Source of the DNA: a virus | Reading direction: 5' to 3' (one strand) | Length of the DNA stretch: 32,509 bases | Virus record (IMG/VR): IMGVR_UViG_3300038441_001254 | Location: 1-32,509 of that record | Shown: positions 21,029 through 26,928 of the stretch, one piece after another | How positions within the stretch are numbered: the first letter of the stretch is position 1 | Layout of the letters: each line of letters starts with the position of its first letter | Notes under the pieces: model-generated | Told to the model about the DNA's origin: nothing | The model's input: only the letters and a program-made list of their open reading frames with translations | The model's database searches: none | Position numbers and translations under genes: made by a program

Positions 21029-21651
21029 TCAACTTCCAAGCAACACACGTCGACCACGAAGGCAAACCCTTGGTGGTCGACGGCGACGTCGGGCAGCGAA
21101 CCCGCTGGGCCATGGCCATCGAGGACCTGCCCAGTGAGCGGCGCAAGGCTGTGCTCACCGCGGTGGAGTGCGTTGGAATCAAGGAAACCCCTATGGGCTC
21201 CAACCGAGGCCCTGACATCGACTTCTGGCTGAAGCGCTGCGGCGTGCCAGTGCCGGAGGACAAGACCATCCCCATGCCGCAGAACGCGTGGTGTGCGGCG
21301 TTCGTCAGCTGGGTGCTCAGCTGTGCTGGCACCACTCAACGCAAGTTCGCGCGCGTGCACGACTGGGTCCACAAGTCAGGACTGACTGCAGTTTCGATTG
21401 AGAATGTTCAGGCTGGAGATCTTGGCTGTTTCCTGAGACCGGACGGCACGGGTCACATCTGGTTGATCATTGGCAAGCAGATGGGGTCCAAAGGCTGGGT
21501 CACCATGAACGTTGAGGGCAATACTGGGAATCAATGTCGCACCACGTTGAGAGAGCACACTCTCAAGACAATCTACTTGCGAACATTCAACCCAGCAATG
21601 CAGCCCGGAATCATTGACGAAACACCTTGGGCAGGTGACGCCACCCGCTAG
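21007..21651 (+). CDS. endolysin with peptidoglycan-binding start and CHAP-like domain
   Basis: A 214-residue protein from ATG 21007, inside the last codons of the hub gene (22-nt overlap), with GGAG just upstream. Residues 6-38 (LINFQATH...PLVVDGDVGQRTRWAM) match a short peptidoglycan-binding repeat. From about 48 on, the protein matches the CHAP-like TIGR02594 group: ECVGIKETP, then NAWCAAFVSWVLS with catalytic Cys96, GHIWLIIG with His150, and NVEGNTG (about 168-174). It should cut cell-wall peptide bonds at lysis. There is no signal peptide, so export needs a holin. It could instead be a virion-associated lysin, as it follows the tail hub without a gap. Confidence 0.8.
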   Translation: MPQDQDLINFQATHVDHEGKPLVVDGDVGQRTRWAMAIEDLPSERRKAVLTAVECVGIKETPMGSNRGPDIDFWLKRCGVPVPEDKTIPMPQNAWCAAFVSWVLSCAGTTQRKFARVHDWVHKSGLTAVSIENVQAGDLGCFLRPDGTGHIWLIIGKQMGSKGWVTMNVEGNTGNQCRTTLREHTLKTIYLRTFNPAMQPGIIDETPWAGDATR

Positions 21652-21706
21652 GGTCCTTGCCTTCCGGATCAGCGGATCGTAGCCTTCTTGTTCAAGGAGG
21701 CTCTCC

Positions 21707-21841
21707 ATGTCAAAGAAGAAAGCCGCTGTCCTGCTGGCAGCGTTACTGACCACCATCGCCGGGACCCTGTACGAATGCAAGGACGACGCACCGCTGCTGG
21801 GCGCGCCTGCACCCACCGCCGCTGACGCTGGCGCTCCGTAA
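21707..21841 (+). CDS. very small membrane-anchored protein
   Basis: A 44-residue protein with a strong ribosome site (AAGGAGG, spacing 6). It starts MSKKKAAVLLAALLTTIAG, a basic start and a hydrophobic helix of about 15-17 residues, followed by YECKDDAP and an Ala/Pro tail. It may be a signal-anchor peptide, and Cys24 is not in a good lipobox. Lying directly after the endolysin it could be a lysis accessory such as a spanin or small holin, but this is inference from place and shape. Confidence 0.55.
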   Translation: MSKKKAAVLLAALLTTIAGTLYECKDDAPLLGAPAPTAADAGAP

Positions 21842-21853
21842 TCGGGGGTCTCA

Positions 21854-22270
21854 ATGCAACCGTTCAAGCTCGTCAACGTGGAGGAAGAGGACGTGCCCGA
21901 TGAGCAACCGTTCGAACTCACCACCGCCGGCCAACGCCGGATCATGTCCGCGCTGGAGGAGGTGAAGAAGAGCTTGGACGCGGTGGTGGAGGGGCAGCAG
22001 ACGTTGGAGAAGGGTCAGGCGCGCCTGTTCATCGGGCAGACGGAGCTTACCACCGCCTTTGGGGCCCAGGCGAAGGAGCTGAAAGCCCTCATCCCTCGCG
22101 TGGAGCGCCTCGAGGCTGCGTCGCGGTGGAAGGTGTGGGCCGTGCGCGCGGCCAAGGCGGCTATCCCCATTGGTGCGGCTGCTCTGGGCCGCTACGCACC
22201 GGACCTCGCGAAGCATCTGCCCGACATACTTAAGTTCCTCGAGCCGTTTCTCGCGAACGCTCCTTTGTAG
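21854..22270 (+). CDS. coiled-coil protein with C-terminal hydrophobic helix (holin candidate)
   Basis: A 138-residue protein. Residues about 25-100 are a long charged helix with heptad pattern (IMSALEEVKKSLDAVVEGQQ, LIPRVERLEAAS). Residues about 105-120 form a weak membrane segment (AAIPIGAAALG), with a basic WKVWAVRAAK stretch before it. The layout, coiled coil then a single C-terminal membrane helix, is seen in XhlA-type haemolysin/holin helper proteins. It is the last gene of the lysis group and of the late transcript, ending 16 nt before the terminator-like hairpin. The holin role is plausible but unproven. Confidence 0.5.
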   Translation: MQPFKLVNVEEEDVPDEQPFELTTAGQRRIMSALEEVKKSLDAVVEGQQTLEKGQARLFIGQTELTTAFGAQAKELKALIPRVERLEAASRWKVWAVRAAKAAIPIGAAALGRYAPDLAKHLPDILKFLEPFLANAPL

Positions 22271-22297
22271 CTCGACCTCGCTCGACTTGCGCTCGAC
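22271..22297 (+). repeat. left hexamer array: three CTCGAC copies
   Basis: CTCGAC occurs at 22271-22276, 22281-22286 and 22292-22297, with starts 10 and 11 bp apart, that is, on one face of the helix. The third copy forms part of the terminator-like stem, whose other arm holds GTCGAG (22310-22315). A further CTCGAC lies at 22366-22371. See the opposite array at 22518-22554. Confidence 0.75.
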
Positions 22298-22320
22298 TGG
22301 CCACCACCAGTCGAGCGCAA
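22287..22320 (+). terminator. late-transcript terminator-like hairpin
   Basis: TTGCGCTCGACTGG (22287-22300) and CCAGTCGAGCGCAA (22307-22320) form a perfect 14-bp stem with loop CCACCA, 16 nt after the last lysis-region stop. The following CTTTC is a poor T-tract, so termination may be partial or bidirectional: the left flank read in reverse also lacks T's. The position between late and early genes supports a terminator role. Confidence 0.7.
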
Positions 22321-22404
22321 CTTTCATGTGCAATTACCGTCCCAAAAGCCCAGAAGAACGACTCCCTCGACTGGAACGACCCCCCATCGGATTGCTAGGC
22401 CAGC

Positions 22405-22478
22405 GGGGGACTAGGGGGACTGCCGTATTCTTCTCTCTCTCTCTCTCTCTAGTAGAGTAGAATAAGAGTAACGGCAGT
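22405..22478 (+). repeat. CT tract inside an imperfect palindrome, plus tandem GGGGGACT
   Basis: GGGGGACT occurs twice in tandem (22405-22412, 22414-22421). ACTGCCGT (22419-22426) pairs exactly with ACGGCAGT (22471-22478). Between them are ATTCT, an uninterrupted (TC)9T run (22432-22450), AGTAGAG, and TAGAATAAGAGTA, whose purines can pair with the CT run. The structure could extrude as a long imperfect hairpin or act as a melting element. TAGAAT (22458-22463) also resembles a -10 box, but no -35 lies at the right distance. Confidence 0.7.
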
Positions 22479-22517
22479 TCGACGTGGTAACCCTTACGGA
22501 TTGTCGTCTTGAGATTA

Positions 22518-22554
22518 GTCGAGGGTTAGTCGAGGGGTGGTCGAGGCAGTCGAG
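22518..22554 (+). repeat. right hexamer array: four GTCGAG copies
   Basis: GTCGAG occurs at 22518, 22529, 22540 and 22549 (start positions), with spacings of 11, 11 and 9 bp; the first two are within TTAGTCGAGGG. It is the reverse complement of the hexamer in the left array, so the two arrays point toward each other around the CT-tract palindrome. This resembles iterons or operator half-site arrays bound by one protein. Confidence 0.75.
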
Positions 22555-22619
22555 TAGGCAGAACATGATTGCGCCTGGGCTCGCGTGGCCCCATGCTGTG
22601 GTTCGAACCTTCCGATAGT

Positions 22620-22654
22620 ATCCCCGGGCAGGAAGGCTCAACCTGCCCGGGGAT
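22620..22654 (+). promoter_or_regulatory. 13-bp-arm GC-rich hairpin in leader of first early gene
   Basis: ATCCCCGGGCAGG (22620-22632) and CCTGCCCGGGGAT (22642-22654) are perfect inverted repeats around a 9-nt loop. They start one base after a GATAGT box (22614-22619) and end 4 nt before the conserved AGAAAAGGACAGAACC leader. It could act as an mRNA-stabilising 5' hairpin, an attenuator or a protein-binding operator. No T-tract follows on either strand. Confidence 0.7.
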
Positions 22655-22674
22655 GTTCAGAAAAGGACAGAACC

Positions 22675-23172
22675 ATGATCTTGTACATGCAACTCGGATA
22701 CACCTGCAAGCCAACCCCGGAACAGATCGCGGTGCTGAAGGAGATGGACCCGTCCTTCGATGTGTATCCTCCAGATGCGCAGTTCGAGTGGCAGCGTGGA
22801 ACGGCGCGCAGTGGGTTCCGCGTGGACCCGTTCGCCATCGTGCGGAACGAGGTTCTCAGGGGTCTTGACTTTCGCATCGATGGTGGCGCCATTGAGACCA
22901 GCACGTTCACCACGTTGGTGAACCATCTGGAGGACATGATCAAGCGCCACACTGGTCATACGCACCCCAACCAGTACAACACGCGCTGCGACGTTCACGT
23001 GCCCAACCTGGGCTTGCTGAAGGTCTCCAAGGTGGAGCTGCTCCAGGACGCTTGCACCGATGACTTGCAGGCCCACCTGGACCGTGGTTGGCGCATCCTC
23101 GCTATCTGCCCTCAACCCAACCAGCGCCGGCCGGACTACATTATCGGCTGCTGTGGTGAAGAGGACGAATGA
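22675..23172 (+). CDS. conserved early phage protein of unknown function
   Basis: A 165-residue protein from ATG 22675 with AAAAGGA upstream. An in-frame ATG at 22585 is rejected because translation would cross the GC-rich hairpin and give a low-complexity start. The C-terminal segment (DDLQAHLDRGWRILAICPQPNQRRPDYIIGC) is a pattern I have seen in other phage proteins of unknown role. The middle contains a helix followed by RCDVHVPNLGLLKVSKVELL. It is the first gene after the intergenic control region, so it is probably expressed first and might be a regulator or host-takeover protein. Confidence 0.65.
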   Translation: MILYMQLGYTCKPTPEQIAVLKEMDPSFDVYPPDAQFEWQRGTARSGFRVDPFAIVRNEVLRGLDFRIDGGAIETSTFTTLVNHLEDMIKRHTGHTHPNQYNTRCDVHVPNLGLLKVSKVELLQDACTDDLQAHLDRGWRILAICPQPNQRRPDYIIGCCGEEDE

Positions 23173-23540
23173 CCGATCGTTGCACTTTCGTCAAGGATGG
23201 TCGTCGGTGCTTGTACCGTCAGCACTCCTCGGAGGTGCGGCACTGCATGCTTGGCCAGTATGGTTGGGTGTTCGATCCTCCCAACGAGGAAAGACCCAAC
23301 CACCATCTGGAGATTCGTCAGCGGTTGGAGCAACGCATCGAACAGCAACGTGAGTCCAATCGCGGGCTGCATCGCTCCAACGCTGAGCTGACGGAGGCGT
23401 TTGCACAGTTTGTGTTCAAGCAGTTCGGCGGTTGGTGGCTGAACAACGACCCTATGAAGCCTTTGGCTGCAGATGGTCTACCACCGGCGGTGGAACGACG
23501 AGTCTTGGAGCTGGTTGAGGAGCACAAGAATGTACGTTGA
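23169..23540 (+). CDS. small protein with possible N-terminal zinc site and coiled coil
   Basis: A 123-residue protein whose start overlaps the previous stop (ATGA), with GAGGA upstream. The N-terminus has Cys5, Cys14, His19, His25 and Cys26 (TDRCTF...GRRCLYRQH...RHC), which could hold one zinc. The middle is a charged helix (LEIRQRLEQRIEQQRESNRG), then a hydrophobic stretch AFAQFVFKQFGGWWLNN. It overlaps the helicase gene by 11 nt, so it is co-translated with it and may be a helicase partner. No known family. Confidence 0.6.
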   Translation: MTDRCTFVKDGRRCLYRQHSSEVRHCMLGQYGWVFDPPNEERPNHHLEIRQRLEQRIEQQRESNRGLHRSNAELTEAFAQFVFKQFGGWWLNNDPMKPLAADGLPPAVERRVLELVEEHKNVR

Positions 23541-25017
23541 GAAGACCACCTCCCTGCGCCACCAGCGCGACGCATATGAGTTCTCGAAGGACCTCCAGGT
23601 GTACGCGCTGTTCTGGGAGCAGGGCGTTGGCAAGACCAAGCCCACCATCGACAAGTTCGGACACCTGTACCTCAGCGGCAAGGTCCAGGGCTTGTTCGTG
23701 GTGGCGCCCAGCAACGTTGCACCAAACTGGGTGAACGACGAGCTGCCGAAGCACATGCCTGATTCATTGTTGAGCCAGGCATGTGTTCACTTGTACCAAT
23801 CATCCAAGGCCAAACAGAAGCGCAACCTGCAGGCCAGACAAGAACTGCTCAAGGCCAAAGGCCCAGCAGTTCTTGTGATGTCGTTCGATGCCATACGCAC
23901 CAAGCTGGGGAAGGCGTACGCTCGCCGTTTCATGCTGAAGTTCCAATGCTTCGGCGTCGTGGACGAGAGCCAGCGCATCAAGAAGCCGAGCGGTAAGACA
24001 GCAGTCACTGTGGTGACTGCGGGGCGATACTTGCCATACAAGACCGTGCTCAGCGGCACACCAGTCACCAACGGTATCCTAGACCTGTACATGCAGGTGC
24101 GATTCCTGGACGAGAACTTCTGGGAGAAGCGCGGGCTGGAGCCATTCAGCGTCTTCAAGAAGCACTTCGCCATCATGCGCACTCGAGCTGAGGCTCTGGA
24201 GGAGGATGGGTGGGACCCCGGATACGACCAGGTGCTGGGCTACAAGAACATCGAGGAGATGGCCGGTTACATCAAGCTCATTGGCCACCGCCTGACCAAG
24301 GATTCCGCCGGCATCAAGCTTCCGCCCAAGGTCTACACCAAGCGTTACTTCGACTTGACGCCGGAGCAGATGCGCATGTACGTGGAGCTGGAGGAGGACC
24401 TCATCACGCACTTCCCTCGTATCAATGAGGAAGACGAGGAGAAGCTGGTCGAGGTGCTTGATCAGTTGACGCTCGGCACTCGACACGCTCAGATCACTTG
24501 TGGCTACATGCCGCCGGAAGCCGGCGAGCCAGTCATCATGATTGGAGATCGCAACCCTCGTCTGGAGTGCTTCAAGGAAGCAGTTAAGGACCTGGACGGC
24601 AAGTCCATCGTGTGGTGCCGGTTCAACACAGACGTGGACCTGGTCATGAGGACTCTCGTGGACATGGGTCGGAAACCTGTCCGCTACGACGGCCAGGTTT
24701 CAATCGACGAGCGTGAGGAGAACAAGCGCGCCTTCCAGGAGGGCGATGCAACGGACTTCGTTGCCAAGCAGTCCGCGGCGTCCGCTGGTGTTACGCTCCA
24801 TGCGGCCAAGTTCGTTCACTATTACAGCCAGTCCTACAACTGGGAGCATCGGGCGCAGTCTGAAGACCGTGCCCATCGCATCGGTCTTCAGCACTCTGTA
24901 CTGTACATCGATTACATCGCTAACGGCACCATCGACGGGAAGATACTCCGAGCGTTACGCAAGAACCACAAGTTCGCCCAGCAAGTGTTGGGGGACACAC
25001 CAACCGAATGGATATGA
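23530..25017 (+). CDS. SF2 helicase, SNF2/DEAD-like
   Basis: A 495-residue protein from ATG 23530. Motif Q-like TSLRHQRDAYEFS is followed by Walker A ALFWEQGVGKTK (Lys35), the Ia region LFVVAPSNVAPNWVNDEL, motif II VVDESQRIKK (DESQ, about 145), and motif III LSGTPVTNG. In the second RecA domain come SIVWCRFNTDVDLV (IV), ASAGVTLHAAKFVHYY (V) and RAQSEDRAHRIGL (VI, about 440-452). These are the seven SF2 motifs in SNF2-like form. It is short for SNF2 proteins and typical of phage versions. It likely remodels or unwinds DNA during replication or recombination. Confidence 0.88.
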   Translation: MYVEKTTSLRHQRDAYEFSKDLQVYALFWEQGVGKTKPTIDKFGHLYLSGKVQGLFVVAPSNVAPNWVNDELPKHMPDSLLSQACVHLYQSSKAKQKRNLQARQELLKAKGPAVLVMSFDAIRTKLGKAYARRFMLKFQCFGVVDESQRIKKPSGKTAVTVVTAGRYLPYKTVLSGTPVTNGILDLYMQVRFLDENFWEKRGLEPFSVFKKHFAIMRTRAEALEEDGWDPGYDQVLGYKNIEEMAGYIKLIGHRLTKDSAGIKLPPKVYTKRYFDLTPEQMRMYVELEEDLITHFPRINEEDEEKLVEVLDQLTLGTRHAQITCGYMPPEAGEPVIMIGDRNPRLECFKEAVKDLDGKSIVWCRFNTDVDLVMRTLVDMGRKPVRYDGQVSIDEREENKRAFQEGDATDFVAKQSAASAGVTLHAAKFVHYYSQSYNWEHRAQSEDRAHRIGLQHSVLYIDYIANGTIDGKILRALRKNHKFAQQVLGDTPTEWI

Positions 25018-25429: not shown

Positions 25430-26002
25430 ATGGTGGAAAGAGACTATTCCAAGTACATCGAGGTGCCGGCTGGCAGTGACCTGCTGAACAGGATTGCTGC
25501 CACCGCAGCGGAGCAAGAGCGGCTCATGAACGAGCTGAACGATCTGGCTCGTTTGGTCAAGGAGAAGGAAGAGGAGCTGCGAGTGGTCAGCGACGGCACA
25601 TTGCCGGACCTGATGGACCAGGCCGGCTTGAAGGAGTTCGTAACGCTGAGCGGAACCAAGATCAAGATCCAGGAGCTGGTCACGGCGAGCTGCCCGGCGC
25701 CTTCCACGCGGGACCCCGAGCTGATGAAGCGTCGCAGCCGCATCTTCAAGTGGCTCGATGACAACGGCTACGGCAAGCTCATCAGCCGCGAGCTGAAGGT
25801 AGAGTTCGACCGCTCCCAGTCGGAGCAGGCGTTGGCGCTGGAGAAGGAGCTGCGCGACCAGAAGTACTCGGTGCAGCGCCAGTACGCCGTTCACCCGCAG
25901 ACCTTCAACAAGTTCGCGCGCGACATGTTGGCGGATGGCAAGGAGTTGCCCGAGGACTTCCACATCCATCGTCGCAACGTGGCGAAGATCGTCAAGGACT
26001 AA
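25430..26002 (+). CDS. conserved phage protein, helical, near SSB gene
   Basis: A 190-residue protein with AAAAGGA leader. Residues about 20-55 form a charged coiled coil (AAEQERLMNELNDLARLVKE), followed by LPDLMDQAGLKEFVTLSGTKIKIQELV, and a C-terminal part with IFKWLDDNGYGKLISRELKVEFDR and a segment like QRQYAVHPQTFNKFARDML. I recognise this layout from phage proteins that sit beside ssDNA-binding and recombination genes, but no function is fixed. It is followed 71 nt later by the SSB-like gene, so a role in DNA metabolism is likely by context. Confidence 0.6.
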   Translation: MVERDYSKYIEVPAGSDLLNRIAATAAEQERLMNELNDLARLVKEKEEELRVVSDGTLPDLMDQAGLKEFVTLSGTKIKIQELVTASCPAPSTRDPELMKRRSRIFKWLDDNGYGKLISRELKVEFDRSQSEQALALEKELRDQKYSVQRQYAVHPQTFNKFARDMLADGKELPEDFHIHRRNVAKIVKD

Positions 26003-26073
26003 GGACGCAACAGCGTCGGTAGCGCCTGGGCAGCGGAGGCGTAGTGTCCGCAGCAACCAACAAGGAAGCAAGT

Positions 26074-26928
26074 ATGGCAGCAGCAAAGAAGACAGCAGAG
26101 ACGGCAGCGACGCAGATGGAGAAGGCAGGCGTTTCGCCGACCGGCATCAGCCGTTACGGCGAGTATGGCACGAAGACCGGCTTCGAAGGCGTCACCAAGG
26201 AGGACCTGAAGACCCCCTTCATCAAGGTGCTACAGCCCATGAGCCCGGAGATCACGAACTCCGAAGTTGAGGGCGCCAAGCCAGGCATGTTCTACAACAC
26301 GGCGTCCGGTCAACTCATCCCCATGGAGCAGGGCATCGTCGTAGTCCCACTGGGCAAGAAGCACCACTTCGTCGAGTGGCGTCCTCGGGAGCAGGGTGGT
26401 GGCTTCGTGGGCACCCACGAGCCCAACAGCGCGGCCGTGCTTCAGGCGCAGAAGGCAGCGGGCAATAAGGTCGGCAAGCTCAGCATCCCCAGCGCTGACA
26501 ACAAGACACAGAACGAGCTGATCGAGTCGCACGACGTGTTCTGCCTCATCCTCTCGGACGATGGCAAGACCACACAGGGCGACTGCGCCATCTTCGCGTT
26601 CACCTCGACCAAGATCGGCGCGGTGAAGAACTGGTGGACGAAGATGTACATGGTCAAGCCTCGTCAGCCCATGTTCACCTTCCGCGTGAAGATCACAGGG
26701 TTCAAGGACCCACGCACCAACAAGGGCGTGTTCTTCAACGTCAAGACGGAAGCCTTCCCGGTTGCCGGCGACTTGAAGCTCAGCTCCATCGATCCGGAGA
26801 CCGAGAAGGACCTGCTGGACTCCGCGTACGCCATGTTCCAGGCGTTCGACTCCGGCGACATGAAGGGCGACTACAGCAAGATGGACGGGACCGAAGCCGC
26901 TGGTGGCGGCGAAGACGTGCCGTTCTGA
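26074..26928 (+). CDS. single-stranded DNA-binding-like protein with SSB tail
   Basis: A 284-residue protein from ATG 26074 (AAGGAAG at proper spacing; an upstream GTG at 26044 is less likely). The end is acidic, with Gly linker and hydrophobic tip: TEAAGGGEDVPF. It closely mimics the DDDIPF tail by which bacterial SSB recruits repair proteins. The core is beta-rich with aromatic and basic strands (HHFVEWRPREQGG, MFTFRVKITGFKDPRTNKGVFFNVKTE), plausible for an OB fold. It is encoded between two DNA-metabolism genes. I infer an ssDNA-binding role; the fold itself is not proven from sequence. Confidence 0.6.
   Translation: MAAAKKTAETAATQMEKAGVSPTGISRYGEYGTKTGFEGVTKEDLKTPFIKVLQPMSPEITNSEVEGAKPGMFYNTASGQLIPMEQGIVVVPLGKKHHFVEWRPREQGGGFVGTHEPNSAAVLQAQKAAGNKVGKLSIPSADNKTQNELIESHDVFCLILSDDGKTTQGDCAIFAFTSTKIGAVKNWWTKMYMVKPRQPMFTFRVKITGFKDPRTNKGVFFNVKTEAFPVAGDLKLSSIDPETEKDLLDSAYAMFQAFDSGDMKGDYSKMDGTEAAGGGEDVPF

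Follow-up and report, generated by a model that had tools for sequence, protein, structure and literature searches.

Classical iterons are about 17-22 bp long, usually share one orientation and lie on one side of the unwinding element. Paired origins are known from Bacillus phage SPP1, whose oriL and oriR are two gp38-bound origins situated ~13 kb apart (PMC6316719). Each SPP1 origin consists of direct repeats and an AT-rich unwinding element, and one phage protein reads both; one origin lies with the replication genes and the other between genes of the late region (PMC6316719). Arrays of short sites are also found in alphaproteobacterial phages, where dense CtrA sites, i.e. sites of a host regulator, occupy a large intergenic region (PMC9437464). 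For the Mesyanzhinovviridae (YuA, PaMx11, Ab18 and kin) and the Pam3-like phages, no replication origin was found in the open-licence papers searched, of which one mentions the non-coding regions of these phages solely for their low GC.

The window, i.e. the whole stretch of 32,509 nucleotides that was analysed, is a 32.5-kb phage fragment. Its large non-coding gap is flanked on the left by head, tail and baseplate-type genes and on the right by genes for a SNF2-type helicase, Pam3 gp32/33/34-like proteins, a Dda-like helicase and ribonucleotide reductase (Table 1). The gap separates the late operon from a replication/recombination operon, in agreement with the placement between late and early genes given in the initial annotation. 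A comparable replication/recombination module is present in Mesyanzhinovviridae (Abidjanvirus, Epaquintavirus, Yuavirus, Vojvodinavirus) and in the unclassified phages Pam3 and RHph_TM26. All of these, as well as many IMG/VR contigs, have the same gap with the same design: repeat arrays of opposite polarity flanking a CT- or AT-rich palindromic core. We lean towards reading this element as a phage replication origin, one of a pair in each genome, with a tandem-HTH protein as its likely binder.

As in SPP1, direct-repeat arrays stand beside an unstable element, and there are two copies per genome in nine of eleven near-complete relatives and in a relative with the CTCGAC word (L083/L256); the window is a fragment without the terS region, and both a second copy and the binder gene would fall outside it. 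Unlike in SPP1, the arrays flank the core at opposite polarity with a period of 9-11 bp, the core is palindromic and often CT-rich, and neither copy lies inside an initiator gene. A gp38/gp39-type protein was not identified, and the downstream machinery here comprises a phage primase-helicase together with an enzyme of the DNA polymerase I type. The element shares with iteron origins (lambda O/ori, Rep plasmids) short repeats at near-helical spacing, an unstable element and replication genes, although its units are 9-11 bp long and mirror-arranged. In packing short sites densely into a large intergenic region, the element resembles the CtrA arrays of phages (PMC9437464), but the word tracks the phage lineage rather than the host and a paired unstable core is present.

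Table 1. Features of the non-coding gap and its flanking genes (window coordinates)
Feature	Position	Strand	Description
Final late-operon gene	21854-22270	+	138 aa, without family match
Non-coding gap	22271-22674		404 bp, between late operon and replication/recombination operon
Left array	22271-22297	+	CTCGAC at 22271, 22281, 22292; direct-repeat family
Perfect 14-bp hairpin	22287-22320	+	Arms TTGCGCTCGACTGG/CCAGTCGAGCGCAA; contains the 22292 and 22310 hexamers
Lone left CTCGAC	22366-22371	+	Closer to core
GCTAGGCC	22394-22401	+	Left of core
GGGGGACT tandem	22405-22421	+	Period 9 bp
Core	22412-22471	.	Lowest-stability 60-mer of the window; proposed unwinding element
Right array	22518-22554	-	GTCGAG at 22518, 22529, 22540, 22549; polarity opposite to left
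TGATTGCGCCTGGGC	22566-22580	+	Identical at the matching place in Pseudomonas phage Epa43
GC-rich hairpin, 13-14 bp	22620-22654	+	Ends 20 bases 5' of the 22675-23172 start codon
First gene past the element	22675-23172	+	165 aa, phrog_8380/4796, function unknown
SNF2-type helicase	23473-25017	+	phrog_62, PF00176/PF00271

Nine copies of CTCGAC or GTCGAG lie within 284 bp (22271-22554), all at the sites and on the strands first reported. In 150 order-3 Markov genomes, used as the null for clustering, the maximum per 284 bp was 4 for CTCGAC and 7 for any 6-mer, and the clustering of nine hexamers is far outside chance. The chance expectation, given initially as 0.14, becomes ~0.27 per 284 bp once the composition of the window is used. 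Only the clustering is notable, as had been remarked: CTCGAC is not enriched window-wide (33 found vs 30.6 expected). The reported spacing of 9-11 bp was recovered within the arrays (10 and 11 bp on the left, 11, 11 and 9 bp on the right), but the copy at 22366 stands alone. The arrays indeed face each other, the left on the plus and the right on the minus strand, except that the copy at 22310 breaks this polarity because 22292 and 22310 form the two arms of one hairpin; these two copies are therefore not independent sites. Between the arrays, the CT run annotated as (TC)9T is in fact (TC)10T at 22432-22452. The imperfect palindrome (ACTGCCGT/ACGGCAGT) was located at 22419-22426/22471-22478, and the copies of the tandem repeat at 22405-22412 and 22414-22421. 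The core sits within this CT-rich palindrome (22419-22478).

The left array begins directly after the stop codon of the last late gene (22268-22270). The perfect hairpin starts 16 bp past that codon and is terminator-like with a weak T tract. By eye, the octamer GCTAGGCC was also found left of the core in both copies of Pam3, and variants of it in RHph_TM26 and further relatives. The segment at 22566-22580 is possibly the promoter region of the downstream operon; a scan covering the sigma-70 class only gave no -35/-10 pair at standard spacing in 21500-23500. The GC-rich hairpin is a possible attenuator of the same operon. An Rfam search of the region gave no match. In the relatives, the SNF2-type helicase is the head gene of the matching operon. 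The C-terminal ~60 residues of the 22675-23172 product match small proteins in >400 phage records, many of them from Pseudomonas and Vibrio phages.

The repeat word of the pre-helicase gap changes from phage to phage: CTCGAC in L083, GTATGGTCA in L091, AAGTTAAGT-type in L086, LKO4 and FP1, AGTAGAGTCA in L085/L089/L093, CAACCTCCC in L067, GAGTAAA/TACTCCC in L046 and ACCCGAGTA in Epa43. The layout, for which no phage counterpart had been known to the initial annotation, is thus shared by related phages whose repeat words differ, and these would go unnoticed in a search for the hexamer alone. A blastn search of the region against phage records gave no match because the word varies between phages. 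A motif-blind measure was applied to 51 helicase-bearing loci; in 22 of them the 350-bp stretch richest in repeats is that before the helicase, the best stretch overlapping an adjacent gene in a few of the 22. Relatives without conserved spacing had been named as evidence that would count against a function of the arrays; instead, spacing peaks sharply at 9 bp. When 21 gaps were pooled, exact 6-mer self-matches peaked at lag 9 (101 vs 2.9 expected, z 42), with echoes at lags 18 and 27, a family-wide period of 9 bp vs 9-11 bp in the window. Polarity is conserved over 14 elements (55 forward vs 34 reverse motifs left of the core, 9 vs 49 right of it), the Fisher P of 2.6e-8 being only indicative because motif words and core positions were picked by eye.

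Gene trees give no support for the common word CTCGAC as a sign of close kinship: the window and L083 are not supported as sisters, and L083 is placed inside a supported clade whose other members carry other words. A pattern scan of IMG/VR for CTCGAC arrays returned 64 stretches, many apparently intragenic repeats, from which L256 was chosen for its paired opposite-strand arrays around a core. Of its hexamers, 15 are packed into 375 bp ahead of terS and 3 are spread over the remaining 19 kb. L083 and L256 seem to be two contigs from a single phage: both come from the same metagenome sample, and the first 71 bases of one encode, within terL, 23 residues that recur unchanged at the start of the other. 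IMG/VR 3300008107_000271 and 3300008107_000948 look like pieces of one phage, with a terL overlap (L271 1-71, L270 start).

The pairing was assessed in 11 near-complete genomes (Pam3, PaMx11, Epa43, RHph_TM26, LKO4, FP1, G013, G015, G016, G017 and G019). A second copy of the pre-helicase gap is significant in nine of them (E 5e-16 to 6e-75), lies 22-33 kb away and precedes terS wherever that gene is annotated. It is inverted in PaMx11 and Epa43. In an all-tile control, the gap pair was the strongest distant repeat in each of the nine genomes. G013 and G017 have only scattered motif copies at the place of the second copy.

The stability of 60-mers was computed from nearest-neighbour energies. 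Within the window, no 60-mer is less stable than the core, and in eight of the 11 genomes (Pam3, PaMx11, Epa43, RHph_TM26, LKO4, FP1, G015 and G019) the two cores have the lowest stability of all 60-mers in the genome. One of the two cores is the genome minimum in G013 and G017, G016 being the exception. Such instability fits a duplex-unwinding element; an operator would not require it. The GC-skew analysis suggested initially lends weak support to an origin role: the detrended cumulative minimum falls ~1 kb or less from the gap in G015, G016, G017 and G019, but the gap is unmarked in the other seven genomes. Skew splits the window best at 22500, with a shallow contrast. Third-position skew proved unreliable, as antisense frames had been picked as ORFs in genomes of high GC.

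Sequence comparison points to a reader of the repeats that is encoded by the phage: the words differ within one host (PaMx11 and LKO4, both on P. aeruginosa) and agree across hosts (LKO4 on Pseudomonas, FP1 on Bordetella). The best candidate is a small tandem-HTH protein encoded beside the primase gene. In LKO4 (LKO4_0025) and FP1 (gp23) this protein has ~105 residues and two HTH domains, resembles XRE/Cro-type regulators and is annotated 'repressor'; the two are 78% identical and their phages have the repeat word in common. In eight of the 11 near-complete genomes, a single homologue is encoded immediately 5' of the primase gene, and one more was found in L067/L044. The search returned none in Pam3 and RHph_TM26, which are the only ones among 17 records to carry an orphan DnaA domain IV protein (PF08299). 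A universal DnaA domain IV binder was rejected because of this restricted distribution. Neither candidate was recovered from G017 by this search. The orphan protein Pam3_55 (L277 19165-19458) is encoded directly upstream of DNA polymerase I, its RHph_TM26 counterpart being in L279.

From the arrays, their polarity and period, the instability of the core, the pairing, the conserved position and the distribution of the candidate binder, we infer the following mechanism. A phage DNA-binding protein, most likely the tandem-HTH protein beside the primase, would bind the arrays of ~9-11-bp repeats; in Pam3 and RHph_TM26, the orphan DnaA domain IV protein would take its place. Since the arrays are oriented towards one another on either side of the core, the complexes would face inward and would melt this core, the weakest duplex in the genome, at which the phage primase-helicase and polymerase could then load. 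One origin would precede the helicase/early operon and the other terS, as with oriL and oriR of SPP1. The DNA had initially been described as a protein-bound origin, partition site or looping operator, of which the position and the protein-bound-array design stand. An origin is favoured because of the core stability minimum, the two copies per genome, the independence of orientation and the neighbouring replication/recombination genes, which the element adjoins. A partition site is unsupported, no ParA/ParB match being found among the scanned proteins of the window fragment. No DnaA box (TTWTNCACA) occurs in 22200-22700.

Several observations speak against an origin. Both copies are upstream of major operons, as regulatory regions are, the cores of G013, G016 and G017 are not both among the least stable sites, the candidate binder is XRE/Cro-like and named 'repressor' in two records, and the spacing in the window is 9-11 bp instead of a strict 9 bp. 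These are partly the grounds for the main rival reading, a paired operator or enhancer, in which a phage regulator such as the tandem-HTH 'repressor' would bind the arrays and so switch the helicase (early) and terS (late) operons, possibly through a loop that joins the two copies. The two copies stand directly upstream of the two main operons, the annotators of LKO4 placed promoters between the arrays and both genes, the candidate has XRE-type HTH domains, and arrays of regulator sites are known in phage intergenic regions, e.g. for CtrA (PMC9437464). Nevertheless, we regard an operator as somewhat unlikely: it accounts neither for the palindromic cores of both copies being the weakest DNA of the genome nor for the inversion of the second copy, relative to its operon, in some phages, and the region of the window has no sigma-70 promoter match. 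Operator and origin functions could coexist in one element.

The copy immediately before terS recalls packaging sites, which are usually near that gene, and headful packaging has been inferred for the family (PMC11946847). A pac or concatemer-processing site bound by TerS is still very unlikely, as the window copy is far from terS and ahead of the helicase operon, the terS-adjacent copy is seen only in relatives and a duplicate pac in mid-genome would be odd. Host regulators such as CtrA could be invoked for the TTAA-containing repeats of RHph_TM26 and L086, which resemble CtrA half-sites, and CtrA arrays do occur in alphaproteobacterial phages (PMC9437464); the differing words of PaMx11 and LKO4 in one host and the common word of LKO4 and FP1 in two make an array of host-regulator sites highly improbable. 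Slippage could produce a CT microsatellite and tandem repeats in non-coding DNA, but functionless low-complexity or recombinational debris is hardly credible when position, period, polarity, pairing and core instability are conserved over divergent phages.

Beyond a replication origin as such, the element may represent a class of paired origins hitherto undescribed, a proposal that we put forward tentatively. It would combine mirror 9-bp arrays, a palindromic unwinding core and a tandem-HTH initiator, with a word rewritten in each lineage and a swap to an unrelated DnaA domain IV protein in one branch. The origins of related phages would then be mutually incompatible and would form a ready series for the study of initiator-origin co-evolution. 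Coordinates are proposed here for two origins per genome, together with a candidate initiator gene. Turnover of the repeat word under a constant architecture constitutes a natural experiment in how a DNA-binding protein and its target co-evolve, and it makes sequence searches miss homology.

The window is a mosaic, with head genes close to the Alteromonas R7M/PaMx25 type and an early module that resembles those of Mesyanzhinovviridae and Pam3. The major head protein shares 57-60% identity with those of Alteromonas R7M, PaMx25 and similar phages; in IMG/VR relatives picked by this protein, the helicase was not found by protein search. The gene-34-type (26044-26928) and gene-33-type (25430-26002) proteins were also considered as binders and set aside, their folded models giving no PDB fold match at the available model quality. 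The last residues of the Pam3 gp34-like protein at 26044-26928 (phrog_2402, PF23977) are GEDVPF, those of its relatives ..PPF or ..PVF. Such C-terminal ends resemble the acidic tail of single-strand DNA-binding proteins, and this protein may be the SSB of the phage.
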